Shown: positions 24,994-41,441 of the stretch, in pieces | How the letters are laid out: every line of letters begins with the position of its first letter | Numbering within the stretch: position 1 is the first letter of the stretch | Virus record (IMG/VR): IMGVR_UViG_3300009506_000045 | Span: 1 to 52,675 of that record | DNA length: 52,675 nucleotides | Direction: 5' to 3' (one strand) | Source: a virus | Translations under genes and position numbers: made by a program | The notes under the pieces: model-generated | The model's database searches: none | Told to the model about the DNA's origin: nothing | What the model saw: only the letters and a program-made list of their open reading frames with translations

Positions 24994-25049
24994 GCCAATT
25001 TTCCAACCCCGCCATGTTCCAACCGTGATACCATAGGGGAGGTCACGAC

Positions 25050-26017: not shown

Positions 26018-26036
26018 GAAGAGGGAGGAGGGCCTC

Positions 26037-26684: not shown

Positions 26685-26893
26685 CAGGCACCCGTCGCTG
26701 GGTCTGGGCCTACGTAGACGGGGCCTGGCGCCCCGCGGTCTTGGTCCGGAGGGTCGAGCGAGGGCGGCGGAAGGGGAGCTACTGGGTCGAGACCGAGGAG
26801 CTCCGAGGGGGAGCGTGGACCCGGAAGAGCTACGTCGTTTCGCCGGACGCGGTCCGCGAGGACCTGCCGGTCGTGACCAAGCATCGAGCCTAG
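26681..26893 (+). CDS. Small SH3-like hypothetical protein
   Basis: A 70-residue protein from ATG 26681 that overlaps the previous stop (ATGA). It is rich in Trp, Arg and Val with alternating short strands ([30 protein letters not shown]), which would suit a small beta-barrel. Function unknown. Confidence 0.6.
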
Positions 26894-26903
26894 GGGGCGT
26901 AAG

Positions 26904-27614
26904 GTGCAATACTTCGGCGGCAAAGCTCGCGTCGGGCCGAGGATCGTGGTCGAGCTCGAACGGGTTCGCAACGGTCGTCCGTTCGTGGAGCCCTTCTGCG
27001 GGGGCCTCTGGATCACGCATCGGATGGCCGGTGAACGGTACGCCTCGGATCTCTGCCGACCGCTCATCACGCTCTACGAGGCCTTGCAGGATGGGTGGGA
27101 TCCGCCGTCGGTCGTGACCGAGGAGACCTACCACCGGATCAAGCAGGTCCAGGACCCGTTCGACCCGATGACGGCCTTCGTGGGCTTCGGCTGCTCGTTC
27201 GCGGGGAAGTTCTTCGGGGGCTACGCCCGGAATCTATCCGTCCGTAACTACGCTGCGACCGCTCGGAGCTCGCTCCTCCGGAAGATGAAGACCTGCCAGG
27301 ATGTGCGCTTCTCCTGTGTTGACTACCGGAAGATCGCCCCCAGGGGTACCCTCGTTTACCTGGACCCGCCCTACCTGAACTGCACCCCGGCAGGCGGGCT
27401 CAACTCGATCGATACCGAGGAGCTCTGGGCGGTAGTCCGTTCGTGGAGCGACCGTAACCTGGTCGTGGTCTCGGAGTACGTGGCCCCGCCCGACTTCCTC
27501 GAGCTGGCGGCCTTCCCAACGACGACCCGCATCCGTAACGCTCGGAACGAACAGGAACCCCGGCTCGAAAAGCTCTTCGTTCACGCATCCTTAGCACGAG
27601 AGGTAAACCTATGA
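26904..27614 (+). CDS. DNA adenine N6-methyltransferase, Dam/D12 class
   Basis: A 236-residue protein from GTG 26904. Motifs: YFGGKAR at the very N terminus (SAM-binding side), FVEPFCGG near residue 30, and the catalytic LDPPYLN at about 153-159. Order and size match the D12 (Dam-like) class, which methylates the N6 of adenine. There is no adjacent restriction enzyme, so it probably protects phage DNA from host restriction or helps regulation. Target sequence unknown. It overlaps the next gene by four bases. Confidence 0.85.
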   Translation: MQYFGGKARVGPRIVVELERVRNGRPFVEPFCGGLWITHRMAGERYASDLCRPLITLYEALQDGWDPPSVVTEETYHRIKQVQDPFDPMTAFVGFGCSFAGKFFGGYARNLSVRNYAATARSSLLRKMKTCQDVRFSCVDYRKIAPRGTLVYLDPPYLNCTPAGGLNSIDTEELWAVVRSWSDRNLVVVSEYVAPPDFLELAAFPTTTRIRNARNEQEPRLEKLFVHASLAREVNL

Positions 27615-29641
27615 ACCTGCGCCTCGGAGCCTCGAACCTGAAGGCCGTCGACTTCGTCCAGGAGCTCACCGGGCTCGACCTGCTGATCGGCCCGAACGGG
27701 GTCGGCAAAAGCTCGCGGCTCGACGCCCTCAAGCTCCTCCTCCTCGGCTACGTGCCGATCCGGGGCAACCGCTCCGCCGGCTCGACCTACGCGGCCCTCG
27801 CCCGTGACCTGGAGCAGCCGATCGAGGTCTGGCTCTCGTGGACCGAGGAACTTCCCGACGCTCCGGAGGTTACCGAGCGGACCGTCCGTCGGATCGTCGA
27901 ACCAGCCCGAAACGACAAGCCGGGCAAGCAGATCCTCGTCGTCGACGACGTGAGGGCTCCGACCCTAAAGGAGGGGCAAGCCCGTCTCGAGGCCCTGCTC
28001 GGCCGGCACCTCGCGACCCTCGACCTGGCGAAGGCCCTCGGGGGCTCGGACGCGGATCGGCGGGCCTGGCTCCTGGAGACGTTCCCCCCGGACGCGGTGA
28101 CGCTGCCCGAGGATCTGCGGTACGAGGGCGCCCCGACGGACCCAGCCGAGCTCAAGCAGGACGTGACCGGGCACGTGACCGAGGTACGCGCGAGGCTCCG
28201 GGCCGCGGAGCAGGCCCACGAGGCCGCGAAGGCCGAGGCTCGGACGTGCCCCGACCCCCCGAACCTGGTCGACCTCGAGGAGCTTCTGGCGACCCTTCGA
28301 CGAGAGGTCGAGCAACGGGCCCGGCTCGAGGGTCGGCTCGAGACGCTCCGCTTCGATCCACCGCTGCGCGTCGATCCGCCCGGTGACGAGCCGGCCAAGC
28401 CGACCCGATCGGTGGCCGAGCTCGACGAGGAGGTCCGGCAGCTCACGCCGCGGCTCAAGGCGCTCGAGACGGCGAACGAGGCCCACCGGGCCCGGGAGGA
28501 GGAGCGGACCGCGTGGGCCCAGCAGGAGGCCCCGACCCGCGAGGCCTTCCTGGTGGCCTGCCGTAACCTCGGCTGGGAGGAGGCCGACCCTACGGACGCT
28601 CGGCAGCGTTTGGCGGCCGAGCTGGCTAACCTCGACGAGGCCATCGATCGGGCCGGCGTCACGGAGGCCCCGACCATCTGCCCGATCAGCGAGATGGTGA
28701 CCTGTCCCGTGCGGTGGGAGCCGCACCTCGAGGACCTAGCGGCGAGACGCGACCAGCTCCGAGGGGAGCGGGCCAAGCTCCAGAGCGTCTCCGACCTGGC
28801 GACCGCGTGGTCGGTGCTCGGCACCGCCCCGCCCGCGCTCCCTGACGTAGGGGAGGAGCTCCAGCGGGTCCGGGACAAGCTCGCGGAGATCCGGGACACC
28901 GCCCGGACGTCCCGGGAGGCAGAGGCCGCGTGGAGCACCTGGGAGGCCGCGCGGCAGGCTTACGAGGCCTACCAGGCCGAGCTCGCTCGGCACGAGGCGG
29001 CCGTCCGGGAGCTCGATCGGCTCGAGGGCGAGCTCGCCAAGCTGACGGTCGTGGACCCCCAGCCCACCGAGGACCGCCTCAAGGAGGGGCGCGAGAGGGC
29101 TTCGCGCAAGCGGCACGTGACCGAGCAGGTCGAGCGCACGCTCCGGGCCCTCGAGGCGGCCCGGGCGGCCTACGAGCGCTGGACGGCCCGGCAGGAGCTG
29201 GTCGCCCAGGTAGAGCGGCAGGCCCTCGGCCAGGCCTCGGGGATCGACGTCCCCGGGCTCGGTCGGCTCGAGGTCGACGCGGAGGCGGCCCGGATCTCGG
29301 TCGGCGGCCGGACGCTCGACGCTCTGTCGGCGGGCGAGCAGGTCCTGGCCCTAACCTACCTGACCCTGTACGCGCTCGGAGGGACAGGCTCGACCGACGA
29401 GAAGCGTTCGACCGACGAGAAGCGTTCGACCGACGAGAAGCGTTCGACCGACGAGAAGCGTTCGACCGACGAGAAGCGTTTTCTCGTGGTTGAAGCAGCC
29501 GAGCTCCACCCGACCCTCTTCGCGGACCTCCTGGCTCACCTGGTCAAGCTCGACGGGCTCTACGTGATCGTCTGCCGACCGGAGGGCCTGGCCCGTCCGA
29601 TCGACGGGGTTACGGTCTGGAACCTGGGGGGTGCATCATGA
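27611..29641 (+). CDS. SbcC/Rad50-like ATPase
   Basis: A 676-residue protein. Walker A is GPNGVGKSS (27-35). A long coiled coil fills residues ~180-560, interrupted near 357-366 by CPISEMVTCP, which looks like a zinc-hook variant. The ABC signature is DALSAGEQVLAL (~571). Just after it, residues 594-623 are five exact STDEKR repeats, followed directly by FLVVEAAELHP where Walker B should be; the expected Asp is replaced by Glu or missing. With its nuclease partner it would process DNA ends; no SbcD-like gene is adjacent, though a DnaQ-like exonuclease lies two genes downstream. Confidence 0.8.
   Translation: MNLRLGASNLKAVDFVQELTGLDLLIGPNGVGKSSRLDALKLLLLGYVPIRGNRSAGSTYAALARDLEQPIEVWLSWTEELPDAPEVTERTVRRIVEPARNDKPGKQILVVDDVRAPTLKEGQARLEALLGRHLATLDLAKALGGSDADRRAWLLETFPPDAVTLPEDLRYEGAPTDPAELKQDVTGHVTEVRARLRAAEQAHEAAKAEARTCPDPPNLVDLEELLATLRREVEQRARLEGRLETLRFDPPLRVDPPGDEPAKPTRSVAELDEEVRQLTPRLKALETANEAHRAREEERTAWAQQEAPTREAFLVACRNLGWEEADPTDARQRLAAELANLDEAIDRAGVTEAPTICPISEMVTCPVRWEPHLEDLAARRDQLRGERAKLQSVSDLATAWSVLGTAPPALPDVGEELQRVRDKLAEIRDTARTSREAEAAWSTWEAARQAYEAYQAELARHEAAVRELDRLEGELAKLTVVDPQPTEDRLKEGRERASRKRHVTEQVERTLRALEAARAAYERWTARQELVAQVERQALGQASGIDVPGLGRLEVDAEAARISVGGRTLDALSAGEQVLALTYLTLYALGGTGSTDEKRSTDEKRSTDEKRSTDEKRSTDEKRFLVVEAAELHPTLFADLLAHLVKLDGLYVIVCRPEGLARPIDGVTVWNLGGAS
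29390..29479 (+). repeat. 18-bp tandem repeat, five exact copies, inside the SbcC-like gene
   Basis: TCGACCGACGAGAAGCGT is repeated at 29390, 29408, 29426, 29444 and 29462 with no differences. It stays in frame (STDEKR) and sits between the ABC signature and the Walker B region. Exact identity points to recent slippage or expansion. Confidence 0.97.
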
Positions 29642-30441
29642 AGCGCTGGTTCCTGCTGGACGGCCCCGGGGTCGAGGCCCTCGCGAGCACGGAGGGGACC
29701 TACCTCAGGGCCTACCTCACGCAGGACGCCGACCCCAACGGCGTCGAGGTGGTGCGCGTGCTTCCGCCCTGCGGGGAACCGCTGCAGGCGTCCGAGGTCC
29801 CACCGGTCGATCACGGCGAGGCTGAGCCCAACGTCAAGACCGAACCGGACGATGCCTGGGTAGCCGAGACGGAACGGATCCGGGGCCTCCTCCAGGGGCG
29901 CGCGAGCGTTGGGAACGATGAGGATCACCACCTCTATGAGTCCCTGCTCGACCTGGTGAACCACGCGTGGGCGCACCTCGGGGTGCGCTGCGCGAACCTA
30001 GAGCGGGAGGCCGAGGCCGGAACAGCCTACACCTCCTCCTTCGGCGCGGACCTGGCGGCCCTCGCTGAGCGGGTCCACGGGCTGGACCAGGAGCTCACGA
30101 GCCTCGACCAAGAGGTGCTCGACCTCCGATCGCTCGTCGAGCAGCGCACGTCGGCGGTCGGACCACCGCCGCTCGTGCACGACCCGGAGGCCTCGTCGGG
30201 TTCAACCCCCTGGCCGGGGCCCGGCATCCAGCCCCCGCACCTTTGGCCGAAGCCCAGCTTCGAGACCACGCGTGACCTCAAGACCACGCGTGGCCTCAAG
30301 ACGAAACCTGGTTCCACCGAGGAGCTTGACCTCTTGCGCGAGATTCGAGCGCTTTCGATCCAGCACCTGGCCTCCGAGCCCTTCGGTCGATCCGACCTCC
30401 GGGACGCTTTGCGCCGCTACGAGAAGGAGTACCTATCATGA
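29638..30441 (+). CDS. Hypothetical coiled-coil protein
   Basis: A 267-residue protein, start overlapping the previous stop. Residues ~100-180 are helical and likely coiled coil (ALAERVHGLDQELTSLDQEV). A Pro-rich linker follows, with the short duplication TTRDLKTTRGLKT, and then a helical C terminus. No known domain. Its place between SbcC-like and DnaQ-like genes suggests a structural or adaptor part of a DNA-processing set. Confidence 0.6.
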   Translation: MKRWFLLDGPGVEALASTEGTYLRAYLTQDADPNGVEVVRVLPPCGEPLQASEVPPVDHGEAEPNVKTEPDDAWVAETERIRGLLQGRASVGNDEDHHLYESLLDLVNHAWAHLGVRCANLEREAEAGTAYTSSFGADLAALAERVHGLDQELTSLDQEVLDLRSLVEQRTSAVGPPPLVHDPEASSGSTPWPGPGIQPPHLWPKPSFETTRDLKTTRGLKTKPGSTEELDLLREIRALSIQHLASEPFGRSDLRDALRRYEKEYLS

Positions 30442-31211
30442 CCGAGCAGCTCGCCTTGATCGACGTCGAGACGACCGGGCTCGACCCCGCTACCTGCCGG
30501 GTGGTCGAGGTCGCGGTCCGGGTGATCGAGCCCCGCCCCGGCGGGGACTCCCGCACGCTCGAGAGCCTCGACGTCACGATCGACGCCGACGTCGACGTGC
30601 CGCCGGGTGCCGCGGCGGTTCACGGGCTGACCCGGGGCCTCCTGGCCCGCACCGGGGCGCCCCCGGCGACGGTCTGGGCTCAGGTGGCGAAGATGCTGGT
30701 CGGTCGGACGATGGTCGCTCACAACGCGCCCTTTGACCGGGACTTCGTGGCCTCCGAGCTCTACCGGCTCGGGGCCGACCGGGACGCTGAGTACGTGAGC
30801 GACCCCGACCGCTGGCTCGACACGCTCAACCTGTCTCGGCACCTGCTCCCGGACCTCGAGGCGCACGGCCTGCCGGCACTCTACTACGCGATGTTTCCCG
30901 ACCCTCCGACCAGACCGACTTTTCACCGGGCGGGGGAGGACGTGCAGATCCTGCAGCGGGTGCTCGACCAGCTCCTCGGCGCCTACGCACTCAAGAACCC
31001 TGGCGGGGTCGATGGGGACGTTATCGGGGGCCTGCTAGAGCTCGCCCAGACCCCGGCTATCGGCTTCCGGATGCCCACGGGCAAGCACAAGGGCATGGCC
31101 CTCTCCCGGCTCCCGACGGACTACCTGCGCTGGGTCGAGCGGTCGGGGGCGTTCCCGGGCTCGCTCCGGGACTCCCTTCTAGCCGTGCTCGCCCACCGAC
31201 GGGAGGCCTGA
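30438..31211 (+). CDS. DnaQ-like 3'-5' exonuclease (DEDDh) with C-terminal DUF3820-like domain
   Basis: A 257-residue protein. Exonuclease motifs: LIDVETTGLD (Asp9, Glu11), MVAHNAPFDRDF, and HRAGEDVQI near residue 160 (His and Asp of DEDDh). The last ~55 residues have the DUF3820 pattern (RMPTGKHKGMALSRLPTDYL then RWVERSG). Such proteins trim DNA or RNA 3' ends. A separate exonuclease beside a proofreading polymerase suggests recombination, host DNA degradation or nucleotide recycling. Confidence 0.85.
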   Translation: MTEQLALIDVETTGLDPATCRVVEVAVRVIEPRPGGDSRTLESLDVTIDADVDVPPGAAAVHGLTRGLLARTGAPPATVWAQVAKMLVGRTMVAHNAPFDRDFVASELYRLGADRDAEYVSDPDRWLDTLNLSRHLLPDLEAHGLPALYYAMFPDPPTRPTFHRAGEDVQILQRVLDQLLGAYALKNPGGVDGDVIGGLLELAQTPAIGFRMPTGKHKGMALSRLPTDYLRWVERSGAFPGSLRDSLLAVLAHRREA

Positions 31212-31213
31212 CC

Positions 31214-31402
31214 GTGGACAGGCACCAGGTCAGGCTCCAGGCGCGGGTGGAGCAGCTCGAGGCGTTTCAAGCTGAGGCGATCCGCCTCCTGGTGCGGGTC
31301 TACCTCGCGCTAGCCTTCAACCCGGAACCGTATGAACGAGATGAGGTTCGACATTCGGTCACGGATCTGTTACAACGAACCGCCAAGGAGGCTCAAAGAT
31401 GA
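31214..31402 (+). CDS. Small hypothetical helical protein
   Basis: A 62-residue protein from GTG 31214, two bases after the exonuclease stop. Helical throughout (ARVEQLEAFQAEAIRLLVRV). It overlaps the next gene start by four bases. No family is recognised; the coupling supports a real gene. Confidence 0.5.
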   Translation: MDRHQVRLQARVEQLEAFQAEAIRLLVRVYLALAFNPEPYERDEVRHSVTDLLQRTAKEAQR

Positions 31403-31629
31403 CGGCGTCAAACGAGACCAAGACCCCTATACCCTACCTCGGCGTGGCCTACGTGTTCGAGGGTGATGAGGCCCGGCTGGTCGAGCACCTCAAGTTCCCG
31501 CTGATCGTCTTCGCGACCAGCCCGCAGGAAGCTCGAGAAAGGGTCGTCAAGATCGTCGCGAGAGATCGTCTCGTGCCCTCGGGCGACATCGACGCGGCCG
31601 AGGTGCGCGTGCTCCCTTTTTCGAACTGA
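31399..31629 (+). CDS. Small hypothetical protein
   Basis: A 76-residue alpha/beta protein: strands YLGVAYVFEG and PLIVFATS, helix PQEARERVVKIVAR, ending in VRVLPFSN. The layout is like small phage proteins of unknown role. AAGGAGG lies upstream within the preceding gene. Confidence 0.58.
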   Translation: MTASNETKTPIPYLGVAYVFEGDEARLVEHLKFPLIVFATSPQEARERVVKIVARDRLVPSGDIDAAEVRVLPFSN

Positions 31630-31646
31630 CGGCGCTCCTCTTTGGC

Positions 31647-31826
31647 ATGGCCGTCGAGTCGGTACCAGGTACCCCCGTCGGAGACGCTGGCGGGCTCCTC
31701 GTGCCGTCTAGCCTGGCGCGGGGCTTGTGCGACCGCGCCGCCACGGGGGGCATCATCAAGGACCCCATCCCGTACACCACCATCACGTGGACCGGTAACA
31801 CGAATAACCAGACCTACACCACCTAG
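31647..31826 (+). CDS. Possible small protein (59 residues)
   Basis: An open frame from ATG 31647 to TAG 31824-31826 in an otherwise empty 208-base gap. No clear ribosome-binding site is seen. The end (IKDPIPYTTITWTGNTNNQT) is protein-like, with a composition different from noise in a GC-rich genome. Weak call. Confidence 0.3.
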   Translation: MAVESVPGTPVGDAGGLLVPSSLARGLCDRAATGGIIKDPIPYTTITWTGNTNNQTYTT

Positions 31827-31837
31827 AAGGAGGGCCG

Positions 31838-32116
31838 ATGTCAAAGTCCTGGAGAACCACGCTCGCCGGCTGGCTCGGCGGGGTCGGCCTGCTGGCCACC
31901 CAGCTCCGGAGCCTGCTGACCGACGGTACGATCGACTGGGAGGTGGTGCTCGCGGCCCTCGCGCTCTTCGGCCTCGGGCTGCAGGCCCGGGACCGCAAGG
32001 TTTCGAGCGAGGACGAGGGGATCAAGCCGGCCACGCCCTCGGTAGCGACCAAGGAGGCGATCGACAAGGCGATCGCCGACGTCCTGACCCAACCCAAGAC
32101 GGAGGTGCAACCGTGA
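31838..32116 (+). CDS. Small membrane protein, holin-like candidate
   Basis: A 92-residue protein behind AGAAGGAGG. Two hydrophobic stretches, LAGWLGGVGLLATQL and VLAALALFGLGLQA, are followed by a charged tail beginning RDRKVSSEDEG. The type TxxGxLxGxGxLLxxL...AALAxxGLGLxAxDxxVS is common in phage lysis regions and is often annotated as a holin. The neighbouring lipoprotein at 32361 supports a lysis cassette, but no endolysin is visible. Confidence 0.55.
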   Translation: MSKSWRTTLAGWLGGVGLLATQLRSLLTDGTIDWEVVLAALALFGLGLQARDRKVSSEDEGIKPATPSVATKEAIDKAIADVLTQPKTEVQP

Positions 32117-32361
32117 CGCTCGCCAACACCGTAACCTCGGCCCTGACGGCCCTCGAGGCGGGGGCGGCGGAGGACGTAGCCCGCTACGCGGCGGCGATCT
32201 CCGCGGACCTGGCCCGGGCGGCCGGCCGGCCGGAGCTCTACGCGGAGGTCCTGGCGCAGGCTCACCTCCTAGCCGAGAAGCACCGGCTGACCGTGGCCCG
32301 CGCTACCCTCGACGTGGCCCTGACGACCCTTCTCTCGACCCTGACCCCGGAGGCTACCTGA
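32113..32361 (+). CDS. Small helical hypothetical protein
   Basis: An 82-residue protein from GTG 32113 that overlaps the previous stop (GTGA). It is Ala/Leu-rich and helical (VTSALTALEAGAAEDVARYA, AQAHLLAEKHRLTVARA). Function unknown. Its stop touches the start of the next gene. Confidence 0.55.
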   Translation: MTLANTVTSALTALEAGAAEDVARYAAAISADLARAAGRPELYAEVLAQAHLLAEKHRLTVARATLDVALTTLLSTLTPEAT

Positions 32362-32633
32362 TGCGTTCCAACCTGGGACAACGTTCCCGCCTAAGGCGGT
32401 ATGCTCGCGCGTTCCTGGTCAGCTCGGCCCTGCTGGTCTGCACCTCGTGCGTCGGCCCGGTCGGCGTCCAGCCGGAGGCCCTGCAGGGGGTGCTCGGCCC
32501 CGTGCTCGACCGCCACGACGCCTACGTGCGCGCCGACGCGGCGCTCGACCCGCTCGACAAGGCGACCTACCTCCGCTCCTCGGCCCTGATCCGGGAGACC
32601 GTGCAGGCTGCCGTGGGGACGCCGGTCCGATGA
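32361..32633 (+). CDS. Small lipoprotein (possible outer-membrane spanin)
   Basis: A 90-residue protein with a basic start, hydrophobic segment AFLVSSALLVC and a lipobox-like CTSC, so Cys30 is the likely lipidated residue. The mature part is short and helical (LDRHDAYVRADAALDPLDKATY). Size, lipid anchor and place after a holin-like gene are what one expects of an Rz1-like spanin; there is no proline-rich stretch, so this is tentative. Confidence 0.6.
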   Translation: MRSNLGQRSRLRRYARAFLVSSALLVCTSCVGPVGVQPEALQGVLGPVLDRHDAYVRADAALDPLDKATYLRSSALIRETVQAAVGTPVR

Positions 32634-32851
32634 AGCCGACCGCCGAAGCGACCCGACGGATCGTCCGGGCGATCCTCGACCGGGGGCGTGAGCTCGGGCT
32701 TACGGCGACCGAGCTCGGCCGTCGGGCGGGGGTTTCCCGGACGACCCTCTGGCGCCTCAAGCAGGGCCAGGGAGGGCGGCTCCACGTGATCCTGACCCTG
32801 GCCCACGAGGTCGGGTATGACCTGGTCCTTGGCCGAAAGGGGGGACCATGA
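32630..32851 (+). CDS. Helix-turn-helix DNA-binding protein (Xre/Cro type)
   Basis: A 73-residue protein whose ATG overlaps the previous stop. Residues ~22-45 form a clear helix-turn-helix: LTATELGRRAGVSRTTLWRL. It is the only obvious small transcription factor in the window, so it is a candidate for binding the AGGAACCT iterons or the promoter cassettes, though nothing links it to either directly. Confidence 0.78.
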   Translation: MKPTAEATRRIVRAILDRGRELGLTATELGRRAGVSRTTLWRLKQGQGGRLHVILTLAHEVGYDLVLGRKGGP

Positions 32852-33048
32852 TCGAGCTCGGAACCGCGCTCCTGCTCATCGGGCTGGTCCTGGCGAGCGG
32901 GGGGACAGGCGCGTTGCTGATCTGGCCGTTCGCGTTCCGACGCGGGCTGTTGGCCGGGCTGATGGAGGCAGGGGGGCTATACGCTCGATCCGTGGACCCG
33001 GACGAGGGTTACCTCGGCCCCCCTGCCGCTTCCTCGATAGGAGGCTAA
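32848..33048 (+). CDS. Small membrane protein
   Basis: A 66-residue protein overlapping the HTH gene's stop. One strong hydrophobic helix (LGTALLLIGLVLASGGTGAL then LIWPFAF) makes up the first half; the rest is polar. No family is recognised. Confidence 0.6.
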   Translation: MIELGTALLLIGLVLASGGTGALLIWPFAFRRGLLAGLMEAGGLYARSVDPDEGYLGPPAASSIGG

Positions 33049-33051
33049 CCG

Positions 33052-33192
33052 ATGTCCTGGTGGATGATCCTGGCGCTGACGTTCTGGTTCAACTGGGGCC
33101 CCTGCGCCCCCATCCGATGGTGGCACGACCTGCACCGGATCCCGCACGTCGAGCGCCTCCACCGACCGATCCCGAGGCCGATCGAGCTCTAA
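33052..33192 (+). CDS. Small Trp-rich membrane-associated protein (46 residues)
   Basis: ATG 33052 to TAA 33192, with a strong AGGAGG just upstream. MSWWMILALTFWFNWGPC is a Trp-rich hydrophobic start; the rest is basic (HDLHRIPHVERLHRPIPRP). Topology suggests a short membrane protein with a cytoplasmic tail. The strong ribosome-binding site is the main support. Confidence 0.55.
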   Translation: MSWWMILALTFWFNWGPCAPIRWWHDLHRIPHVERLHRPIPRPIEL

Positions 33193-33252
33193 CGGGCTAA
33201 CAGCCTGACGGCTCGTCTGCTTGCGAAGGGCGGCGCTACCGAAAGGAAACCC

Positions 33253-33789
33253 ATGGCTCAAAGCAAGACAACCCGCACGAAGAAGGCGGGGGTGAAGACC
33301 AACCGGAGGACCAGCCGGAAGACCAACCGGAGGACCAGGCAACCGGCCAAGACCTACCAGCGGATCCGGTGCCGGACCTGCGGGCAGGAGACCACCCGGA
33401 AGGGCTTCCCGAAGCACCCGCGGGAGCGGTTGGAGGATTTTCGGATCTGCAATACCTGCCTCCGAGCGGGACGGGACTACCAGGAGCTCGGGGAGAAGCC
33501 CAACAACTGGGTGCCCCGGCCTGGCGTTCGGGGCTACGTGCCGGGGAGGGCGAACCAGCAGGGGTCCCAGGCGAACCCAACGGACTATCCGACGGGCTAT
33601 CCGACGGGCTACCCGACGGGCTACCCGTCGGCTACCGTGGGCTCCCTGCCACCGATCTCGACCCCAGGTGAGGCCCGGGTGCAAAGGCTCACCTACGGTG
33701 CGACGCCAGCGATCCAGACCGAGACGGTGAAGGAGCTTCTCCGGTCGGTCCTGCGCGAGCTCCTGGACGAGGAGAGCTACCCGAGGTAG
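33253..33789 (+). CDS. Basic protein with a four-cysteine zinc-finger-like centre
   Basis: A 178-residue protein. Residues 1-36 are strongly basic with a repeated KTNRRTSRKTNRRT. A CRTC-x~25-CNTC pair of CxxC motifs (about residues 40-73) should bind zinc; it recalls small zinc-finger proteins that carry intron- or phage-encoded nuclease functions, but no catalytic motif is seen. A 12-bp repeat (33577-33624) encodes four TGY-type units. The C terminus is a helix (VKELLRSVLRELLDEES). Nucleic-acid binding is likely. Confidence 0.65.
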   Translation: MAQSKTTRTKKAGVKTNRRTSRKTNRRTRQPAKTYQRIRCRTCGQETTRKGFPKHPRERLEDFRICNTCLRAGRDYQELGEKPNNWVPRPGVRGYVPGRANQQGSQANPTDYPTGYPTGYPTGYPSATVGSLPPISTPGEARVQRLTYGATPAIQTETVKELLRSVLRELLDEESYPR

Positions 33790-33819
33790 ACTAGCCCCAG
33801 ATCCCAGGAGGTACGCCCG

Positions 33820-34074
33820 ATGGCCCGCGTTCGTCACCCTTACTGGCTCTTCGGTGGGCGAGACGACCGGGCCAAGGGCGGGATCGACGACCTCCTGGCG
33901 ACGTTCGCCAACCTGGACGCGGCCCTCGCCTACCTGGCCGAGCAGGAGCAGGGGTCCCGGGCTAACGGGGACTGGTACCAGCTCGTCGACGTTACCACGG
34001 CCTACGCGGTCCGCTCCCGCTACTACCTCGCGCGGGAGGGCTGGTTCGACTACCGAGAGGAGACGCGCCGATGA
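33820..34074 (+). CDS. Hypothetical protein
   Basis: An 84-residue protein behind GGAGG. Aromatic-rich N terminus (HPYWLFGGRDDRAKGG), a helical middle (NLDAALAYLAEQEQG), and an ending with a short beta part. The pattern of a short strand, an Ala-rich helix and a WYQLVDV strand occurs in many small phage proteins of unknown role. It overlaps the next gene by four bases. Confidence 0.62.
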   Translation: MARVRHPYWLFGGRDDRAKGGIDDLLATFANLDAALAYLAEQEQGSRANGDWYQLVDVTTAYAVRSRYYLAREGWFDYREETRR

Positions 34075-34487
34075 ACGTAGGGTTTTCGAGCGACCGCTCT
34101 TCTTTTTTCGCTCGATGGTTCCAAAAACGATACACCGAGGCAAGGCCAAACGAGAGGGTGCTCTGCCTGGACTTCGACGGGGTGCTGCACCGGTTCGAGA
34201 CACCTTTCGCCGACCCCGCGGTGATCCCAGACCCGCCCGTACCTCTCGCAGGAGCGTTCGTCCGGGCGGCCCTCCTGGCCTACGACCGCGTGGTGATCTG
34301 CTCGTGCCGGGCGCGGGTTCGACGAGGACGCCGAGCGATCCGACGCTGGCTCGAGGTCTGGGGTTTTCCTCAAGGTCTCGAGGTGACCTGCCGAAAACCC
34401 TTCGCGGAGGCCTACCTCGACGACCGGGGGATCCGGTTCGAGGGGAGCTGGCCGTGGGACCTGGTTCGGGGGGATCATCATGCTTGA
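34071..34487 (+). CDS. HAD-superfamily phosphatase
   Basis: A 138-residue protein. Motif I is CLDFDGVLH (nucleophile Asp), motif II VVICSCRAR (Ser), motif III the Lys in VTCRKPFAEAY, and motif IV YLDDRGIRF. It lacks a large cap domain, so its substrate may be a nucleotide or a DNA/RNA 3' phosphate. It belongs to a run of tightly overlapping middle genes. Confidence 0.78.
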   Translation: MNVGFSSDRSSFFARWFQKRYTEARPNERVLCLDFDGVLHRFETPFADPAVIPDPPVPLAGAFVRAALLAYDRVVICSCRARVRRGRRAIRRWLEVWGFPQGLEVTCRKPFAEAYLDDRGIRFEGSWPWDLVRGDHHA

Positions 34488-34674
34488 CGTGTTCGCGGTG
34501 TTGCTCGTGTCGGTCGGCGGAGCCTGGCTCTTCGGCCTGGTGCTCTCGGCGATCCAGAAGCGCCCCCAGCTCCTGCCGCCCGACGTCACCTACCAGGGGC
34601 TCGCGCTCTACACGATCGTTCACGCGGTCTTCTACCTCCTCGTCGGGGCGGCCCTGACGAGGCTGCTCAACTAA
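34480..34674 (+). CDS. Small two-helix membrane protein
   Basis: A 64-residue protein from ATG 34480 that overlaps the phosphatase end by eight bases. Two hydrophobic helices (VFAVLLVSVGGAWLFGLVL and YTIVHAVFYLLVGAALT) are joined by a polar loop. No family is recognised. Confidence 0.6.
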   Translation: MLDVFAVLLVSVGGAWLFGLVLSAIQKRPQLLPPDVTYQGLALYTIVHAVFYLLVGAALTRLLN

Positions 34675-34688
34675 CCGGAGGCCTAACC

Positions 34689-35699
34689 ATGACGTCCGAC
34701 GCCCCGCGCGAGCCTTTGCATAGGTCCGGCACCTGGACACCCCCGCCCCTCTCGTCGACCGTGCTCCGGGACCACGAGCGCTGCCCGCTGAGGCCGCGGC
34801 TGCTGGAGTATGGGAAGGACCAGATCGGCTCCCTGCCCGCGGCGGCCGGGGTGATCTTCGACGACCTGCTCCGGAGGCGCCTACGGCTTGACCTCTCCCT
34901 GCCGGAGCGGGACGAGGACGTGGCCTGGATCTCACCCCTGATCCTGCCCCAGGCGCGCGTGCTCGGGAAGCGCCTCTACCAGGCCTACCTCCGGTCCGGG
35001 GCCTACGACGCCCTCCTCAGCGAGGACGTGAGGGACCCCGACCCCCCGCGAGCCTGGCGGGCGCTGAGAAGGGCGGGCCCCGCGGTCGCGCTCGGCTGGT
35101 CGGGGACCGAGGAGGAGGTGCGCGAGCAGGTGCGGGCTGCCCGAGACGAGGGAGCCGAGGCCTACGTGCTCTCCGCCCGGCTCGACGGGCTGCTGGACGG
35201 GCCAGGGGTACCGCCAAAGGGCGAGGGTCCACCTCGCGTGATCGACTACAAGACGACCGGGGTGCTCCGCGGGGCCTCGGTGCCGGGCGGCTACGTGCGC
35301 CGGTGGCGCGGCGGGGTGAACCTCGGAGGGGACCAGCTCCCCGGCCCGCCGGTCGGGAGGCCCGGCTGGCACGACCAGCTCGGCTTCTACGCGGCCATGA
35401 GCAGCACCCACCACGTCGGCGTGGAGGCGGTCGTCGTGGGCCGAGGCTGGCGGACCGTCGACGTCGCGTCCTACCGCTGGGACGTCGCCTCGGCGGAGCT
35501 CCTGGTGATCGTGCGGCGCTACCTCGAGGCGGCCCGCTCCCTGGCCGGCCCGTGCCCGACCGTCGAGGCCGGGGCGCGATGCTGGGCCTACAACCGGCTC
35601 TGCCGGGCCGCGGACCGCTGCCCGGCCAGAGGAGGTGAACCAGGAGGTGAACCAGGAGGCAAACCAGGAGGTGAACCAGAAGGTGAACCGTGTGCCTGA
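34689..35699 (+). CDS. RecB/Cas4-like PD-(D/E)xK nuclease, probable Fe-S protein (paralogue 1)
   Basis: A 336-residue protein. LSSTVLRDHERCPLR near the N terminus holds the first cysteine; SARLDGLLDG and RVIDYKTTG (~184-190) supply the catalytic Asp and D-x-K; and ARCWAYNRLCRAADRC near 296-312 holds three more cysteines, as in the iron-staple cluster of AddB/Cas4 enzymes. It has a paralogue at 37013 with the same layout. The C-terminal tail (GGEPGGEPGGKPGGEP) is encoded by a run of Shine-Dalgarno-like repeats serving the next gene, which it overlaps by ten bases. Confidence 0.82.
   Translation: MTSDAPREPLHRSGTWTPPPLSSTVLRDHERCPLRPRLLEYGKDQIGSLPAAAGVIFDDLLRRRLRLDLSLPERDEDVAWISPLILPQARVLGKRLYQAYLRSGAYDALLSEDVRDPDPPRAWRALRRAGPAVALGWSGTEEEVREQVRAARDEGAEAYVLSARLDGLLDGPGVPPKGEGPPRVIDYKTTGVLRGASVPGGYVRRWRGGVNLGGDQLPGPPVGRPGWHDQLGFYAAMSSTHHVGVEAVVVGRGWRTVDVASYRWDVASAELLVIVRRYLEAARSLAGPCPTVEAGARCWAYNRLCRAADRCPARGGEPGGEPGGKPGGEPEGEPCA
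35630..35689 (+). repeat. 12-bp repeat: five tandem Shine-Dalgarno-like units before an MCL gene
   Basis: Units AGGAGGTGAACC, AGGAGGTGAACC, AGGAGGCAAACC, AGGAGGTGAACC and AGAAGGTGAACC end right at GTG 35690. Each carries an anti-16S-like AGGAGGTGA. They also encode the Gly-Glu-Pro tail of the nuclease. Whether they act as a ribosome loading array or only show repeat expansion is open. Confidence 0.9.
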
Positions 35700-36133
35700 G
35701 CCTGGTCGACGAGATCCACGACCCGCCCCTCGAGGAGGAGCGGACCGGCTGGAAGGTCTTCGCGCGCGGAGGCTACCCGGTGATAACGGGGCTCCGCAGG
35801 GAGGTCCCTACGCGGGTCTGGGTCGATGAACACGGTTACCGGATCCGTGCGCGTTTGGAAGCGATCCGCATCACCAACGACGTATCGTACCCGACCGGGT
35901 GGCACGTTTTCACCAACCTTGACGGAGCGAAGGCCCTTCACGCGCAGCTTCAGTCGGCCTGGAACCCCTGCCCCATCCACCGGGTTCGTTACCGCAGGAT
36001 CGTCGCGGAGGGTCTACAGGGCTCCCGGCGGGTCGACGTAGCGAAGGAGATCTACCTCGAGGGGCGATACAGCTTCGAGGACGGGACCGTCGAGGAGGTC
36101 GGAGATAGCTCAGGGGGTGAACCGTGTGCCTGA
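35690..36133 (+). CDS. MCL-family protein, paralogue 1
   Basis: A 147-residue protein of a family with four members here. All begin GTG-TGC-CT(N) or TTG, giving Met-Cys-Leu. Shared blocks are EER-x-GWKVF, VW(L/V)-x-E-x-GYR, YPTGWHVF, VRYRRIVA and VDVA-x-E. After Met removal Cys2 would be the free N terminus, as in SRAP and Ntn enzymes; the conserved His in GWHVF could assist. Function unknown; members of this kind occur in other phages. The C terminus GGEPCA overlaps the next gene's start by ten bases. Confidence 0.7.
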   Translation: MCLSLVDEIHDPPLEEERTGWKVFARGGYPVITGLRREVPTRVWVDEHGYRIRARLEAIRITNDVSYPTGWHVFTNLDGAKALHAQLQSAWNPCPIHRVRYRRIVAEGLQGSRRVDVAKEIYLEGRYSFEDGTVEEVGDSSGGEPCA

Positions 36134-36585
36134 CCAGCTTGCAACGGCTGTACGCTCAGCCGGTCATGGAGGAACGGGTCGGCTGGAAGGTGGTAGCCCG
36201 AAGGGGCGACACCTACACCCTGGCGATGCAAGGTCGGCGCGACGAGGCCCTCCCAGCTCGGGTCTGGCTCCACGAGGCAGGCTACCGTAGCTACGCGGAC
36301 CTCTCCGTGCTGAACGCCGGGGATACCATCCCCGCCGTCGGCCCAGAGTACCCAACCGGGTGGCACGTCTTCCGGGAGCTCCGAGCGGCACTAGCCTACC
36401 GCCAGGACCTAGCATATTTTTACGTGAACCTTACCCCCGTGGTCGTCCGGGTGCGCTACCGACGAACGGTCGCGACGGGATGGCAGGTCAACCCGGCCTT
36501 TGGCAGGGCGGTGGTCGAGGTGGCGGAGGAGCTTCTCCTCGAGGGGACCTTCGAGGAGCTGACCGGAGGTGAGCCGTGTGCTTGA
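36124..36585 (+). CDS. MCL-family protein, paralogue 2
   Basis: A 153-residue protein with MCLTSLQRLY at the start, EERVGWKVVARRGDTY, ARVWLHEAGYRSY, YPTGWHVF, RVRYRRTVATG and a VEVAEELLLEG end. The first and last ~60 residues align with paralogue 1; the middle differs in length. It ends GGEPCA like paralogue 1 and overlaps the next member by ten bases, so the boundary sequence itself is conserved. Function unknown. Confidence 0.7.
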   Translation: MCLTSLQRLYAQPVMEERVGWKVVARRGDTYTLAMQGRRDEALPARVWLHEAGYRSYADLSVLNAGDTIPAVGPEYPTGWHVFRELRAALAYRQDLAYFYVNLTPVVVRVRYRRTVATGWQVNPAFGRAVVEVAEELLLEGTFEELTGGEPCA

Positions 36586-37061
36586 GCAAGGTGCTCGCCG
36601 CCTACCCCGAGCCCGAGGAGCGGGAGCTTAGCGGCTGGAAGGTCTTCTACAGGGAGCCGAACGGCTCGCTGCAATCGCTGTTTTACGGCGCGGTACGTTG
36701 GCCCGCCGGGCTGCCGATCGGTACCTGGGTCCACGAACGCGCGGGGCGCATCGACCCTTCAGAGAGGGTCGGGCCCCCCCGTTTTGGCACCCGGGTCAGC
36801 CGCCAGCCAACCTACCACCTCGGCTGGCACGTCTTTCGGACCCGCCGAGCGGCCGAGGCCTACCGCTGCGCGGAGCATGAAGCGGAGGTGGTCCGGCGGG
36901 TCCGGTACCGGAAAATGGTCGTCCGCGGCCGGCAGGAGGGCTACCGGGTCGACGTCGCCCTGGAGCTATTCATCGAGCCTGAACCACATATCAGCGAACG
37001 AGGAGACACCCGATGCCTGAGACCCGCGAGCCGGTCGTCGCCGACGCGATCGACGCCCTGA
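36576..37061 (+). CDS. MCL-family protein, paralogue 3, with altered 3' end
   Basis: A 161-residue protein: MCLSKVLAAYPEPEERELSG, GTWVHERAGRID, YHLGWHVF, RVRYRKMVVRG and VDVALELFIEPEP. After about residue 140 it continues as ERGDTRCLRPASRSSPTRST, which does not resemble the family and overlaps the next gene by 49 bases, so its original stop was probably lost when the second nuclease gene joined. The 35 bases at 36948-36982 recur downstream of that nuclease. Function unknown. Confidence 0.65.
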   Translation: MCLSKVLAAYPEPEERELSGWKVFYREPNGSLQSLFYGAVRWPAGLPIGTWVHERAGRIDPSERVGPPRFGTRVSRQPTYHLGWHVFRTRRAAEAYRCAEHEAEVVRRVRYRKMVVRGRQEGYRVDVALELFIEPEPHISERGDTRCLRPASRSSPTRSTP

Positions 37062-38092
37062 GCTCGAGCAAGCTCGCCGCGTGCGAACGCTGCCCCGAGC
37101 GCTGCCGGCGCCTCTACTGCCGGGGGCCCCGCGAGCACGTCCACTCGGTCTACCAGGCCGCCGGCGCCGTGCTCGGCGGCCGCGCGAAGCGCTGGCTCGC
37201 GGAACGGCTCGATCTGCCCTGCCCGAGCCTCAAGGAGCTCACGGGCTGGGTCTCGCGGCTCAACGTGCGCGGCTGGAGCCTCGGGGGCCAGCTCTGGGAG
37301 GGCCACCGGCGGACGGGCGGCCTCAAGGCGCTCGCGCGCGAGGTGACGGCCGTGGAGCCGACCCGGCTGCTGCCGGGCGCCGAGCCCGACCCCAAGGACG
37401 CGCACGGCAGCGGCTGGCGCGTGCGGGGCGAGCTCGAGGGGCGCCCGCTGACGATGCGGCCCGACGTGCTCGGCCTCTCGGGCCTGCCCGGGCCGTGGAT
37501 CGGGATCAGTCTGGGCCCGGCAATGACGCACAACACGATCCAGAGTCGGAGCCCCCTCGAGGCTGCACGGCTCCAGTTCGACACGGTCCTCGACCTCAAG
37601 ACCGCGGGCGTCGTGCGCGGGGCGAGCGGGCATCCGCTCTACCTGCGGCGCTGGAAGGGCGGCGTCGACGTCGGGATGCACCCCGACCTCGCAGCGCGCG
37701 CCCGGGAGGCCGCGGTGGACCGGGAGGGCCGCCCGGTCCCGGCCGGGGCGCGTGACCCCTACTCGCTCCTCGCGATCGAGGAGCTCCCGCCCGAGTGGGC
37801 GCTCCAGCTCGGCCTCTACGCGCTCGGGCTCGGCGTGCGTCGGGTCGGAATTGACCTCGTCTACGCCCGGCCGGGCTGGCGGGCGGTCGAGTGCGTGCAG
37901 TATCGGGCCCACCTGACGGGGCGCTTCGAGGACGAGCTCCGGGCGCGCGTGCGGCGCTTCTGGGCGTGGGCGGACGCGACGCCGGCCGCGGAGCCGGCCG
38001 AGGCGCGGCCGGGGCGCGAGACCTGCTGGGCCTACAACAGCCTCTGCGAGGTCGGGGAGGACTGCGCGGCACGCCTCGAGGCGGGTCTCTGA
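37013..38092 (+). CDS. RecB/Cas4-like PD-(D/E)xK nuclease, probable Fe-S protein (paralogue 2)
   Basis: A 359-residue protein. CERCPERC (24-31) lies near the N terminus, MRPDVLGL and VLDLKTAG (~191-198) form the PD-(D/E)xK active site, and CWAYNSLCEVGEDC lies near the C terminus. The layout matches paralogue 1, with longer linkers. Base use is visibly richer in CGC, GCG and GCC codons than its neighbours. It is flanked by fragments of an MCL gene, which suggests insertion by recombination. These enzymes trim or resect DNA ends; two in one phage is unusual. Confidence 0.82.
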   Translation: MPETREPVVADAIDALSSSKLAACERCPERCRRLYCRGPREHVHSVYQAAGAVLGGRAKRWLAERLDLPCPSLKELTGWVSRLNVRGWSLGGQLWEGHRRTGGLKALAREVTAVEPTRLLPGAEPDPKDAHGSGWRVRGELEGRPLTMRPDVLGLSGLPGPWIGISLGPAMTHNTIQSRSPLEAARLQFDTVLDLKTAGVVRGASGHPLYLRRWKGGVDVGMHPDLAARAREAAVDREGRPVPAGARDPYSLLAIEELPPEWALQLGLYALGLGVRRVGIDLVYARPGWRAVECVQYRAHLTGRFEDELRARVRRFWAWADATPAAEPAEARPGRETCWAYNSLCEVGEDCAARLEAGL

Positions 38093-38094
38093 GC

Positions 38095-38160
38095 CCCGGG
38101 GTTATCTCGATCTGACCGTCGACGTCGCCCTGGAGCCTGTTCATCGAGCCTGGGGTCACC
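38095..38160 (+). pseudogene. Relic of an MCL-family gene
   Basis: CCCGGGGTTATCTCGATCTG at 38096 matches 38470-38489 of paralogue 4, and 38118-38152 matches the 3' ends of paralogues 3 (36948-36982) and 4 (38652-38686). The two parts are joined by a deletion of the sequence between them, and one extra base shifts the frame (VDVALEPVHRAW instead of VDVALELFIEP). It is a decayed fifth copy in the 97-base gap after nuclease 2. Confidence 0.75.
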
Positions 38161-38189
38161 GAGCCGGGTAACGCCCAGGAGGGTCTACC

Positions 38190-38732
38190 GTGTGCCTCAA
38201 CGTGATCGAACGAACCTACGATCCTCCGCTCCAGGAGGAACGCGTCGGCTGGAAGCTCTTTCAGACGAAGGGCGGGAAGCTCTATCCCGCGGCCCGCGGG
38301 ATCGGACCCTACCGAAGCGGAGCCTGGCTCGATGAGGTCGAGCATCGTGAGCGTCCTCCCTGCCCGGAATCTAGCTATATCGCCAGCCGTAGCCTCAAGA
38401 TCTACCGGACCGGCTGGCACGTGTTCCAGACCAGGAAGGACGCTGAGGAGGCTCTTCGATGCTTCTCGGCCCGGGGTTACCCCGATCTGACCGTCCGGAA
38501 GGTCCGCTACAAGGGGATCGTGGTATCGGGGCGAGAGGAGCATCCTCTACCCGGCTACCGTGGTCTTACGCGGGGAACGTGTGGCGGTCACCCGGTGCCG
38601 CGGGGCGTCACCACCGACCTCACCGTTTCGATCCCTACGATCGCTCTGAACGTCGACGTCGCCCTGGATCTGTTCATCGAGCCTGACCCACGGAGCCCGG
38701 AGCCTGACCCACGTCCCAACCTTACGAGGTGA
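38190..38732 (+). CDS. MCL-family protein, paralogue 4
   Basis: A 180-residue protein: MCLNVIERTYDPPLQEERVG, GAWLDEVEHRER, YRTGWHVFQTRKDA, KVRYKGIVVSGRE and VDVALDLFIEPDP. It carries an extra ~35 residues between KGIVVSG and VDVA (a Gly/Pro/Thr-rich stretch), absent from the other three. It is read from GTG with AGGAGGG upstream. Function unknown. Confidence 0.68.
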   Translation: MCLNVIERTYDPPLQEERVGWKLFQTKGGKLYPAARGIGPYRSGAWLDEVEHRERPPCPESSYIASRSLKIYRTGWHVFQTRKDAEEALRCFSARGYPDLTVRKVRYKGIVVSGREEHPLPGYRGLTRGTCGGHPVPRGVTTDLTVSIPTIALNVDVALDLFIEPDPRSPEPDPRPNLTR

Positions 38733-38736
38733 CGTC

Positions 38737-38958
38737 ATGCAAGAGATCCGGACACGAGACGCCACGGTTTACGGTTCACCCCGCGTGGTGGTCGCGGAGA
38801 CGAAGCACCGGATCCTCGGCCACTGCCCAGCTTGCCAGGTGGCGGTCGTGATCATGGTCGAGGAGAAGGTCGGCCGAGCCGGCTGGGTGCTGACTCGAAA
38901 CGAGACATATTGGGACCCGGACCAAAGCGAGACCGGCTTGGTCCCGCATACCTGCTAG
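38737..38958 (+). CDS. Small zinc-ribbon-like hypothetical protein
   Basis: A 73-residue protein with GAGGTGA before the ATG. It contains HCPACQVAVVIMVEEK, a CxxC pair, and a last Cys at the C terminus (PHTC), perhaps with a His ligand, so it may bind zinc. It is the last gene before the iteron region. Confidence 0.6.
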   Translation: MQEIRTRDATVYGSPRVVVAETKHRILGHCPACQVAVVIMVEEKVGRAGWVLTRNETYWDPDQSETGLVPHTC

Positions 38959-38989
38959 GTGCCAAAAGTGGACCCTTCTAGGCTCCGGC

Positions 38990-39243
38990 AGGAACCTAGG
39001 AACCTTCGCCGAACCTAACCAAAAGGCTAGGTTCGGTTGGAAGTCAGGGTGGGGTAAGAGTTTACGTGGGTCAGGAACCTAGGAACCTAGGAAGGTGTAT
39101 ATCCTCTATACACGTAGAGATACAAGACAAATCTTCTCTGTATTTTCCAGGTGGTTTTTCTTAGGTTCCTAGGTTCCTGCGAAGCATCAAGATAGGTCAG
39201 GATAAGGGATTACAACGGAACCTAGCTCCGAACCTAGGAACCT
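38990..39243. promoter_or_regulatory. Iteron region between early and late genes (candidate origin or master control region)
   Basis: The non-coding gap 38959-39335 holds about 12 copies of the 8-bp unit AGGAACCT. Forward units lie at 38990, 38998, 39009 (CCGAACCT), 39073, 39081, 39089 (degenerate), 39216, 39228 (CCGAACCT) and 39236; reverse units at 39029 (AGGTTCGG), 39163 and 39171. Many are head-to-tail at exact 8-bp steps. CCGAACCTA/TAGGTTCGG (39009-39036) and GTGTATA/TATACAC (39095-39113) form inverted repeats, and 39097-39160 is AT-rich for this genome. Iterons plus an AT-rich segment suits an origin or a cooperative operator. The same units flank the divergent promoters at 15.4 kb. Confidence 0.75.
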
Positions 39244-39335
39244 GTAAGGAAATCTTACGTATCAGAATGAGACACTCCCCTCCCTCCCCGAATTAGCCCT
39301 TGTGTCAACCTGGATCAGCGGGTAGACCTGCAGGT

Positions 39336-39818
39336 ATGGGCATCAACGAGGAGCTCCGCGCGTCCCCTGAGCCGACCCCGCGGGATCTCTCCGACTTCAT
39401 CGCTGACCGATCCTTCATCTGCGAGCGGCAGTTCCAGCGTCTTATCGGGGCGATCGAAAAGTACGAGCAAGACCACGGTGTCTCGTTCTGGGGCCACGTC
39501 GTCGCCCGGGCGATGGCGGACGACGTCATGCTCCGTCACCTGCTCTCCAAGGTCCTGCCCTACCAGCACCAGCTCCAGGCCATCCCCTCACCTACCAACA
39601 GATCGACCTGGTCCGAGGAGCAGCGGATCCGGGAGCTCCGGGCGAAGTTCTACCGTGAGGTCGAGGGGGTAGGTGCCCAGGTCCCACCCCTCGAGGCGGC
39701 GCCCCTCCCCCCGACCGACGAGGTCCTGGAGGGGGAGGTCGTGTCCAGCGAGCCGGCGGAGGAGCCTGGTGGGGTTGACGTTCCCGGTGGCGACCCTGGA
39801 GGTGGGCCTGGTGGGTGA
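39336..39818 (+). CDS. Putative terminase small subunit
   Basis: A 160-residue protein from ATG 39336; TTG 39300 could extend it but would begin in the iteron gap's tail. It is helical in the middle (FICERQFQRLIGAIEKYEQD, WGHVVARAMADDVMLRHLL) with an acidic Gly/Pro-rich C terminus. No clear helix-turn-helix is seen. The call rests on its place directly before the large subunit and its size. It may recognise the packaging site, which could lie in the adjacent iteron region. Confidence 0.5.
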   Translation: MGINEELRASPEPTPRDLSDFIADRSFICERQFQRLIGAIEKYEQDHGVSFWGHVVARAMADDVMLRHLLSKVLPYQHQLQAIPSPTNRSTWSEEQRIRELRAKFYREVEGVGAQVPPLEAAPLPPTDEVLEGEVVSSEPAEEPGGVDVPGGDPGGGPGG

Positions 39819-39899: not shown

Positions 39900-41441
39900 G
39901 TGCTCGAACCGTACACCTCCCCTACGTGGGAGGAGACCTGGCTCTGGATCCGGGACAAGAGCGGCCGGCTGATCCCCTTCGTTGAGAACCCGATCCAACG
40001 AGCCTACGACCGAGCCCTCGAGGACGCGTTCCGGCTGACCCCGCGGCGCCACGCCCTCGTGCTCAAGTATCGCCGGGGAGGGATCACGACCCGGGAGCAG
40101 GCTCGCTCGTACCGGGCGGTGGCGACCCAGCGGTACCAGTCCGTCGTGACCGTGGCCCAGGAGGCGGACGCCACGACCCAGATCTTCGAGATCGCGCGAA
40201 CCTTCGACGAGCTCTACCGTGGCCCCTCGAAGCGGGGCAACAAGCGTGAGATCCGTTTCGACGACCACAGCTCCGCGTTCCGGATCGGGACGGCGGGCAA
40301 GACGGCGTTCGGTCGTGGGGCCACCTACCAGCGGGCGCACCTCTCGGAGGTCGCCTTCTGGCCGGCTCGGGTGGACGTGCCTCGCATGGTCGCGGCGATC
40401 ACCGAGGCCGCCTCGCACGGGGAGGTGATCGCGGAGACCACGCCGGGTGCGGTCGGTGACTGGTTCTACACCACCTGGAAGGATGCCCGGGAGGGGCGAA
40501 ACGACTGGGCTACCGTCTTCCTCCCCTGGTGGCACGACCCGACGCTACGGGTGCCGCTGACCCCGGACGCGGAGGCGGGGCTCCTGGAGACGCTCACGGA
40601 GCGGGAGGCGCACCTCCGGGACCACGAACACCTGGACGCGAGGCAGCTCGCGTGGAGGCGGCTCAAGAAGAGGCAGCTCCGGAACCTGTTCGGGAGCGAG
40701 TACCCCGAGGACCCGATCACGTGCTTCCTGCGCTCGGGCCTCTCGTTCTTCGACGTGCCGCGGTTGTCGGAGCTCATCGGTCGGTGCCGACCTTTCGTGG
40801 CGGAGGAGCGCTACCCCGGCGGGAAGCTCCGTATCTGGCACCCGCCCGAGGAGGGGGAGGCCTACTCGATCGGGGTCGACGCCTCGGATGGGATCGACGG
40901 GGGTGACTACTCCTGCGCGGGGGTGCTCCGGGACCGGGACGGGGAGCAGGTGGCCGAGCTCCACGGCCTGTTCCGGCCGCGAGACCTGGCGCACCACGTG
41001 GCAACCCTCGGCCGCCGATACCACACGGCCCGGCTGGCCGTCGAGAAGAACGAGCATGGCCACGCGGTCCTGCTCTCGCTCACCGACCCCCGGCACGAAG
41101 ACTATCCCCGGGGGCGCCTCTATCGAGCCTGGACCCGGACCGCCAAGGGGGCCCTGTCTCGATCGTCTCGTTTTGGGTGGACGACGAACGCGGAAACGCG
41201 TACCGTGTTGCTGGGTGACCTGGCGCGGGCCCTCGAGGGCGACGTGCTCCCGGACGGTTACGGGGACCCCGGGATGAAGGTCAACTCCCCCGAGCTCCTC
41301 GAGGAGTGCTTCTCGTTTCGATCCACCAGAGCCGGTAGGTACGAAGCGGAGGCCGGACGCTACGACGACCGGGTCATGGCGTGGGGCATCGCATGGCAGC
41401 AGCGACAGGATCGGATCACGACCCCCGGGCTCGTGACGTGA
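39900..41441 (+). CDS. Terminase large subunit
   Basis: A 513-residue protein from GTG 39900. The ATPase half has LVLKYRRGGITT in the Walker A place, VVTVAQEADATTQIF, RAHLSEVAFWP in the Walker B place (Glu in SEVAF) and VIAETTPGAVGDW as the coupling motif. The nuclease half has IGVDASDGIDGGDYSC, LAVEKNEHGHAV and YDDRVMAWGIA, the RNaseH-like acidic residues. It packages DNA into the prohead. The stop overlaps the portal start (GTGA). Confidence 0.88.
   Translation: MLEPYTSPTWEETWLWIRDKSGRLIPFVENPIQRAYDRALEDAFRLTPRRHALVLKYRRGGITTREQARSYRAVATQRYQSVVTVAQEADATTQIFEIARTFDELYRGPSKRGNKREIRFDDHSSAFRIGTAGKTAFGRGATYQRAHLSEVAFWPARVDVPRMVAAITEAASHGEVIAETTPGAVGDWFYTTWKDAREGRNDWATVFLPWWHDPTLRVPLTPDAEAGLLETLTEREAHLRDHEHLDARQLAWRRLKKRQLRNLFGSEYPEDPITCFLRSGLSFFDVPRLSELIGRCRPFVAEERYPGGKLRIWHPPEEGEAYSIGVDASDGIDGGDYSCAGVLRDRDGEQVAELHGLFRPRDLAHHVATLGRRYHTARLAVEKNEHGHAVLLSLTDPRHEDYPRGRLYRAWTRTAKGALSRSSRFGWTTNAETRTVLLGDLARALEGDVLPDGYGDPGMKVNSPELLEECFSFRSTRAGRYEAEAGRYDDRVMAWGIAWQQRQDRITTPGLVT

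Follow-up and report, generated by a model that had tools for sequence, protein, structure and literature searches.

Tandem 8-bp boxes as a candidate control element at the replication and late gene starts of a phage genome

Introduction

The alpha protein of phage P4 is a multifunctional primase-helicase, and this phage carries two separate repeat-bearing sites, ori and crr. The met boxes recognized by MetJ are 8-bp, near-palindromic, tandem units on which the protein stacks cooperatively. The winged helix and the repeats of P4 have been described (PMC4234260), as has the origin of pRN1, which comprises a 21-nt stem and a 58-nt loop (PMC4234260). The SaPI Rep and SCCmec Cch2 systems use short iterons that are bound by the C-terminal domain of the initiator (PMC7581432). 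For published relatives of the primase-helicase class considered below, the origins that the protein binds are iterons or stem-loops (PMC7581432, PMC4234260).

Here we analyse two gaps with arrays of short boxes in a 52,675-bp stretch of DNA (the window), which is an entire IMG/VR virus record. The arrays are compared with the corresponding regions of about 60 distant uncultured phages that carry the PrimPol/SF3/winged-helix primase.

Results

Genome layout

Every gene of the window is on the + strand except that for the primase-helicase, and two gaps are conspicuous in the gene map (sites 1 and 2; Table 1). The gene on the left of site 2 spans 38737-38958 and that on its right 39336-39818; portal and capsid genes, like the terminase large subunit gene, lie downstream. 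A weak Xre-like HTH gene (32630-32851) is the only candidate for a cognate regulator of the boxes. Rfam and tRNA searches gave no matches.

Both ends of the record (1-600 and 52393-52675) hold the same tandem repeat (GGCCGGGTGGGCCCTCGCCCTCACG...), so the record may be nearly complete, as an opened circle; the ends suggest that the assembly of a closed or permuted genome was broken within a repeat gene. Four similar, clustered genes (35690, 36124, 36576 and 38190, within 35690-38732) share the pattern MCL...GWKVF...GWHVF...VRYR, and the one member that was scanned has no family match, with Colicin_D at E 0.13 only. A pentapeptide-repeat-like protein (ADLSGANL...) is encoded at 26037-26684 by DNA that repeats in 15-bp steps.

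Table 1. Features of the window. Numbers under Remarks that refer to boxes are start positions.
Feature	Coordinates	Strand	Remarks
PrimPol-SF3(DUF5906)-winged-helix primase-helicase	12635..15313	-	892 aa
Site 1, divergent gap between primase-helicase and replication operons	15314..15500	.	
Site 1 left array	15360..15383	+	3 boxes, 8-bp steps
Site 1 right array	15453..15476	-	3 boxes, 8-bp steps
Replication/middle genes	15501..38958	+	thymidylate kinase-like, helicase, DNA polymerase A, clamp-like, others
Site 2, non-coding gap before terminase genes	38959..39335	.	377 bp, 49% GC
Outer left array	38990..39016	+	38990, 38998 (exact), 39009 (CCGAACCT)
Single inverted box	39029..39036	-	CCGAACCT
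Inner left array	39072..39096	+	39073, 39081 (exact), 39089 (degenerate)
AT-rich core of site 2	39097..39162	.	66 bp, 34.8% GC
Inner right array	39163..39178	-	two exact boxes
Outer right boxes	39216..39243	+	39216, 39228, 39236
Putative terminase small subunit	39336..39818	+	by position alone; no family match
Terminase large subunit	39900..41441	+	phrog_2, 5e-19

The two box-bearing sites

Seven exact copies of AGGAACCT are present within 254 bp of site 2 (38990-39243). When up to two mismatches are allowed there are 12 boxes, nine on the + strand and three on the - strand (39029, 39163 and 39171), and the count and coordinates given in the initial annotation, about twelve boxes in a 377-base gap before the terminase genes, are thereby confirmed. 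Its further claim that the boxes follow one another at exact 8-bp steps holds for most of them (38990/38998, 39073/39081/39089, 39163/39171 and 39228/39236) and fails for 39009, 39029 and 39216, which are out of register. Box 39029 pairs with box 39009 to give a short hairpin with arms at 39009-39020 and 39025-39036.

Boxes in both orientations do surround an AT-rich core, as had been proposed from the sequence at the outset. The genome has a GC content of 67.6%, the core contains its lowest 60-bp value, and no other place falls to 40% or below. Within the core lies GTGTATA-TCCTC-TATACAC. The inner left and inner right arrays together constitute an inverted repeat with 22-nt arms (95%) and a 64-nt loop, for which DNA folding yields a z value of -7.2.

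The arrays of site 1 likewise form an inverted repeat, with 30-nt arms that are 93% complementary around 55 nt (z -7.65 when folded as DNA). The core here has 52% GC and is less AT-rich than that of site 2.

Exact AGGAACCT occurs 10 times in the 52,675 bp, where 1.24 occurrences are expected, and this number was reached by none of 100 shuffles. Pairs of boxes in 8-bp register (at most two mismatches in total) are found only at site 2 and at 15360-15476. A genome-wide count, the check proposed in the initial annotation, confines the exact word to the two gaps with one exception, a coding copy at 52057; frequent copies scattered in genes, the outcome that would speak against the proposal, are not seen. 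The box word recurs at the starts of three transcription units and is rare elsewhere.

The primase-helicase, promoters and strand skew

The only gene on the - strand encodes a protein with PrimPol motifs and a DUF5906/SF3 domain, and its C-terminus is predicted to adopt a winged-helix-like fold (AlphaFold model, pLDDT 83, pTM 0.50, the latter value making domain placement uncertain). The closest solved folds are those of NrS-1, of D5/E5 (the poxvirus and ASFV primase-helicases) and of SaPI5 PriRep1. An element-encoded primase-helicase with a predicted DNA-binding domain, one of the features expected of the origin class, is present in this phage.

Neither gap of the window yielded a consensus sigma-70 promoter, and the -10-like arm ends of the relatives (see below) are not evident in its arms. 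GC skew at 4-fold sites of + strand genes changes at site 2 (+0.17 on the right versus -0.04 on the left). The initial annotation had looked to such a shift as a sign of origin activity, but the control in relatives failed, with the corresponding pattern at the primase gap in 5 of 14, and we dropped skew as origin evidence for site 2. A skew that is higher in late than in early genes is common in the relatives, and gene class may therefore explain the change in the window.

Inverted repeats in the primase gaps of relatives

Relatives of the DNA polymerase (35-51%) led to 37 loci where the same primase is encoded upstream of the polymerase and on the other strand, leaving a divergent gap as in the window. 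Open reading frames of the relatives were called mechanically. Inverted repeats beyond those of dinucleotide shuffles are present in 22 of 31 non-duplicate primase gaps, and a second primase scan produced 29 new divergent gaps, 21 of them with a long inverted repeat (hand count from the table). Control gaps of the same genomes, with site 2 of the window left out, contain an inverted repeat in 10 of 98 cases, or 4 of 17 when divergent controls are taken by themselves. The primase gaps of relatives are also among the lowest-GC places.

The word that builds the inverted repeat differs in each phage; examples are ACTN tetramers flanking 63-73 bp cores (six phages), GGAT, AGGT and AACTTAAG, among others. 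Because the words vary while shape and position persist, it is the layout that is conserved and not the letters, and the equivalence of the elements is accordingly judged by position, geometry and intragenomic repetition. An outward -10-like hexamer such as TATAGT/TATAAT is a frequent end of the arms in relatives; 40 outward hexamers lie no more than about 10 bp from an arm end, compared with 34 in the inward control, a modest excess. Covariation of the word with the winged helix was rejected as proof of recognition, since every domain shows different identities inside a word group and across groups (49 versus 40% for the winged helix, 65 versus 58% for SF3). The winged helix is conserved less than the PrimPol and SF3 domains.

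No close relative at the DNA level was found in the phage collection. Searches for terminase and capsid relatives recovered one fragment, which lacks the upstream region, and no terminase was found in genome contigs. Three matches to the exact 16-mer were obtained from IMG/VR, one inside a gene and two upstream of terminase genes, and 14-mer matches are mostly inside genes; the word alone therefore does not mark a family.

Other arrangements were also observed. The primase gap of one relative (L031 2939-3340) holds long AACTTAAGTTAAGGCC arrays with 16-bp steps. Sigma-70-like promoters flanked by GATTTGATT-type words are seen at L017 14807-15116, G001 42461, G012 47991 and G025 46531. Words of this type lie upstream of sigma-factor-like genes in L017, G001, G003 and G025, the first of which matches Sigma70_r4 (E 2.5e-4) while the other three were labelled by eye.

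Recurrence of arms before the terminase genes

A generic ranking of 10-mers common to the primase gap and a second site, relative to other gaps, was not clear-cut and was replaced by a search for arms directed at the terminase small subunit gene (TerS). Since a phrog_2 search for the terminases of relatives returned the wrong family, tblastn was used instead, and the TerS label in the G-records comes from tblastn matches to the gene that precedes TerL in L064.

In G007, G008, G012, G015 and G019, TerS is preceded by one arm of the primase-gap repeat at a distance of 39, 56, 78, 68 and 85 bp, respectively, and all five arms point toward TerS; in G010 the distance is 815 bp. For 9 of 11 genomes, the best match across the 6 kb that precede TerS is equalled in none of 17-27 control windows, and the weak genomes are G012 and G005, for which 3 of 25 and 3 of 24 control windows are equal. 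The best match in G015 and G019 is another copy 3-5 kb away, not the TerS-proximal arm. The window follows a two-site layout that is also seen in several relatives. A cis-element common to the replication promoters and to the start of the late/packaging genes is thus conserved in its layout and not in its letters. The window is a variant that carries, at its late site, an enlarged and complete copy of the element.

Further part-copies of the primase gap were noted at G001 59000, G003 68002, G015 50491, G019 65522 and G002 11726 (records L005, L007, L023, L028 and L006, respectively; coordinates with the primase gap turned to +). They are mostly non-coding, lie 3-5.6 kb upstream of terminase genes and extend to 102 bp at 89% (G019); a second origin, a promoter or an RNA gene is possible. 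Separately, AGGAACCTAGGAACCTAGGAAC, the word of the window, is present at L065 572-597 between a primase-helicase (VapE-like by eye) and TerS, and no homology of the L065 primase to that of the window was detectable.

Discussion

There is perhaps an even chance that the boxes are sites at which one phage regulator, common to three operons, exerts cooperative control. A single phage-encoded DNA-binding protein would bind them cooperatively, with its units stacked side by side through the tandem 8-bp spacing, and a bridge between the two inward-facing arrays may span the AT-rich core (64-74 bp), where the late promoter would lie. The control element would serve two divergent replication promoters and, enlarged, would be used again at the start of the late packaging and structural genes, so that one regulator could couple replication-gene expression to the late-transcription switch. 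Protein binding, its encoding by the phage, an action on transcription and the sign of that action (repressor or activator) are all points that we infer. Tandem boxes sit only at the starts of three transcription units, which is in favour of a shared regulator, as are the -10-like arm ends and the word-flanked sigma-70-like promoters of relatives and the recurrence of the word before TerS in L065. The differing words, the modest hexamer excess and the failure to find a consensus sigma-70 promoter in either gap of the window are against it, as is the retention of an inverted left array at site 2, where no gene runs leftward.

That same array is more easily accommodated if site 2 is an iteron origin, the main alternative, which we consider less likely. 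The PrimPol-SF3 primase-helicase would contact the boxes with its C-terminal winged helix, melt the core of site 2 and prime there, and site 1 would act as a second site, origin-like or autoregulatory, as with P4 ori/crr, SaPI, SCCmec Cch2 and pRN1. An AT-rich core and an initiator of this type favour an origin: the protein combines PrimPol, SF3 and C-terminal winged-helix-like folds, the repeats flank the AT-rich minimum of the genome, and low GC recurs at the primase gaps of relatives. Loops of 55-64 nt resemble the pRN1 origin stem-loop (PMC4234260), and short iterons bound by a C-terminal domain have precedent in SaPI and Cch2 (PMC7581432). The skew change at site 2 points the same way, but its counterpart at the primase gap is limited to the 5 of 14 relatives mentioned, and the single arms at their terminase starts all face the same way, a feature that is not required of an origin. 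The initial annotation had offered either an iteron origin or a cooperative operator at the border of middle and late genes. Both survive, and the comparative data favour transcription control because the arms recur directionally at operon starts. It is unlikely that the primase-helicase binds the arrays as both initiator and transcription regulator, an estimate that overlaps those for the two separate roles; if it does, the origin at site 2 would fire and the late genes open in one event, and word and winged helix would co-diverge between phages.

A packaging initiation site (pac or cos) bound by the terminase small subunit would fit the location of site 2 directly before the terminase genes and the arms or arrays that precede the TerS genes of several further phages. 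The same boxes, however, stand 24 kb away beside the primase, a frequent position of the element in relatives, and the record ends elsewhere than at site 2, though it may be incomplete; we regard this explanation as quite improbable. Even less probable is an element of the leader RNA, for example in antitermination or translation control, in place of a DNA site. The strong hairpin potential of both sites, computed for DNA, would suit it, but the inverted arrays themselves account for the folding, Rfam has no match, and the short unit occurs in both orientations. A LexA-type operator (GAAC repeats) was also considered and set aside, since direct arrays of three 8-bp units are at odds with such an operator.

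The comparison points to a cis-control layout, at the replication start and again at the late/packaging start, that many uncultured phages of a large group retain even as its words are exchanged. Such a layout offers a simple way to find origins or promoters and their cognate proteins in phages that have no cultured relative, and through it the link between replication and late transcription becomes testable.

Among described systems, SaPI Rep and SCCmec Cch2 are alike in that short, element-specific tandem words are paired with a D5/SF3-type primase-helicase bearing a C-terminal DNA-binding domain, which in the window is predicted. Their iterons, of 5 nt in SCCmec, are short and lie at one site downstream of the helicase gene, whereas the window has 8-bp boxes, as candidate binding sites, at two sites, one of them far from the primase. 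The pRN1 system shares a PrimPol-SF3-winged-helix protein and an inverted repeat with a loop of about 60 nt, conserved in shape and not in sequence; its stem-loop is downstream of the gene and not iterated, while the arms in the window are built of iterons, lie upstream in a divergent gap and have a second copy at the late genes. P4 also combines two repeat-bearing sites with one multifunctional primase-helicase, but its primase is of the TOPRIM type and the repeats are not alike. Although a ribbon-helix-helix protein was not identified in the window, the 8-bp near-palindromic tandem boxes themselves resemble operators of the MetJ type in size, symmetry and tandem arrangement, and could likewise allow cooperative stacking.
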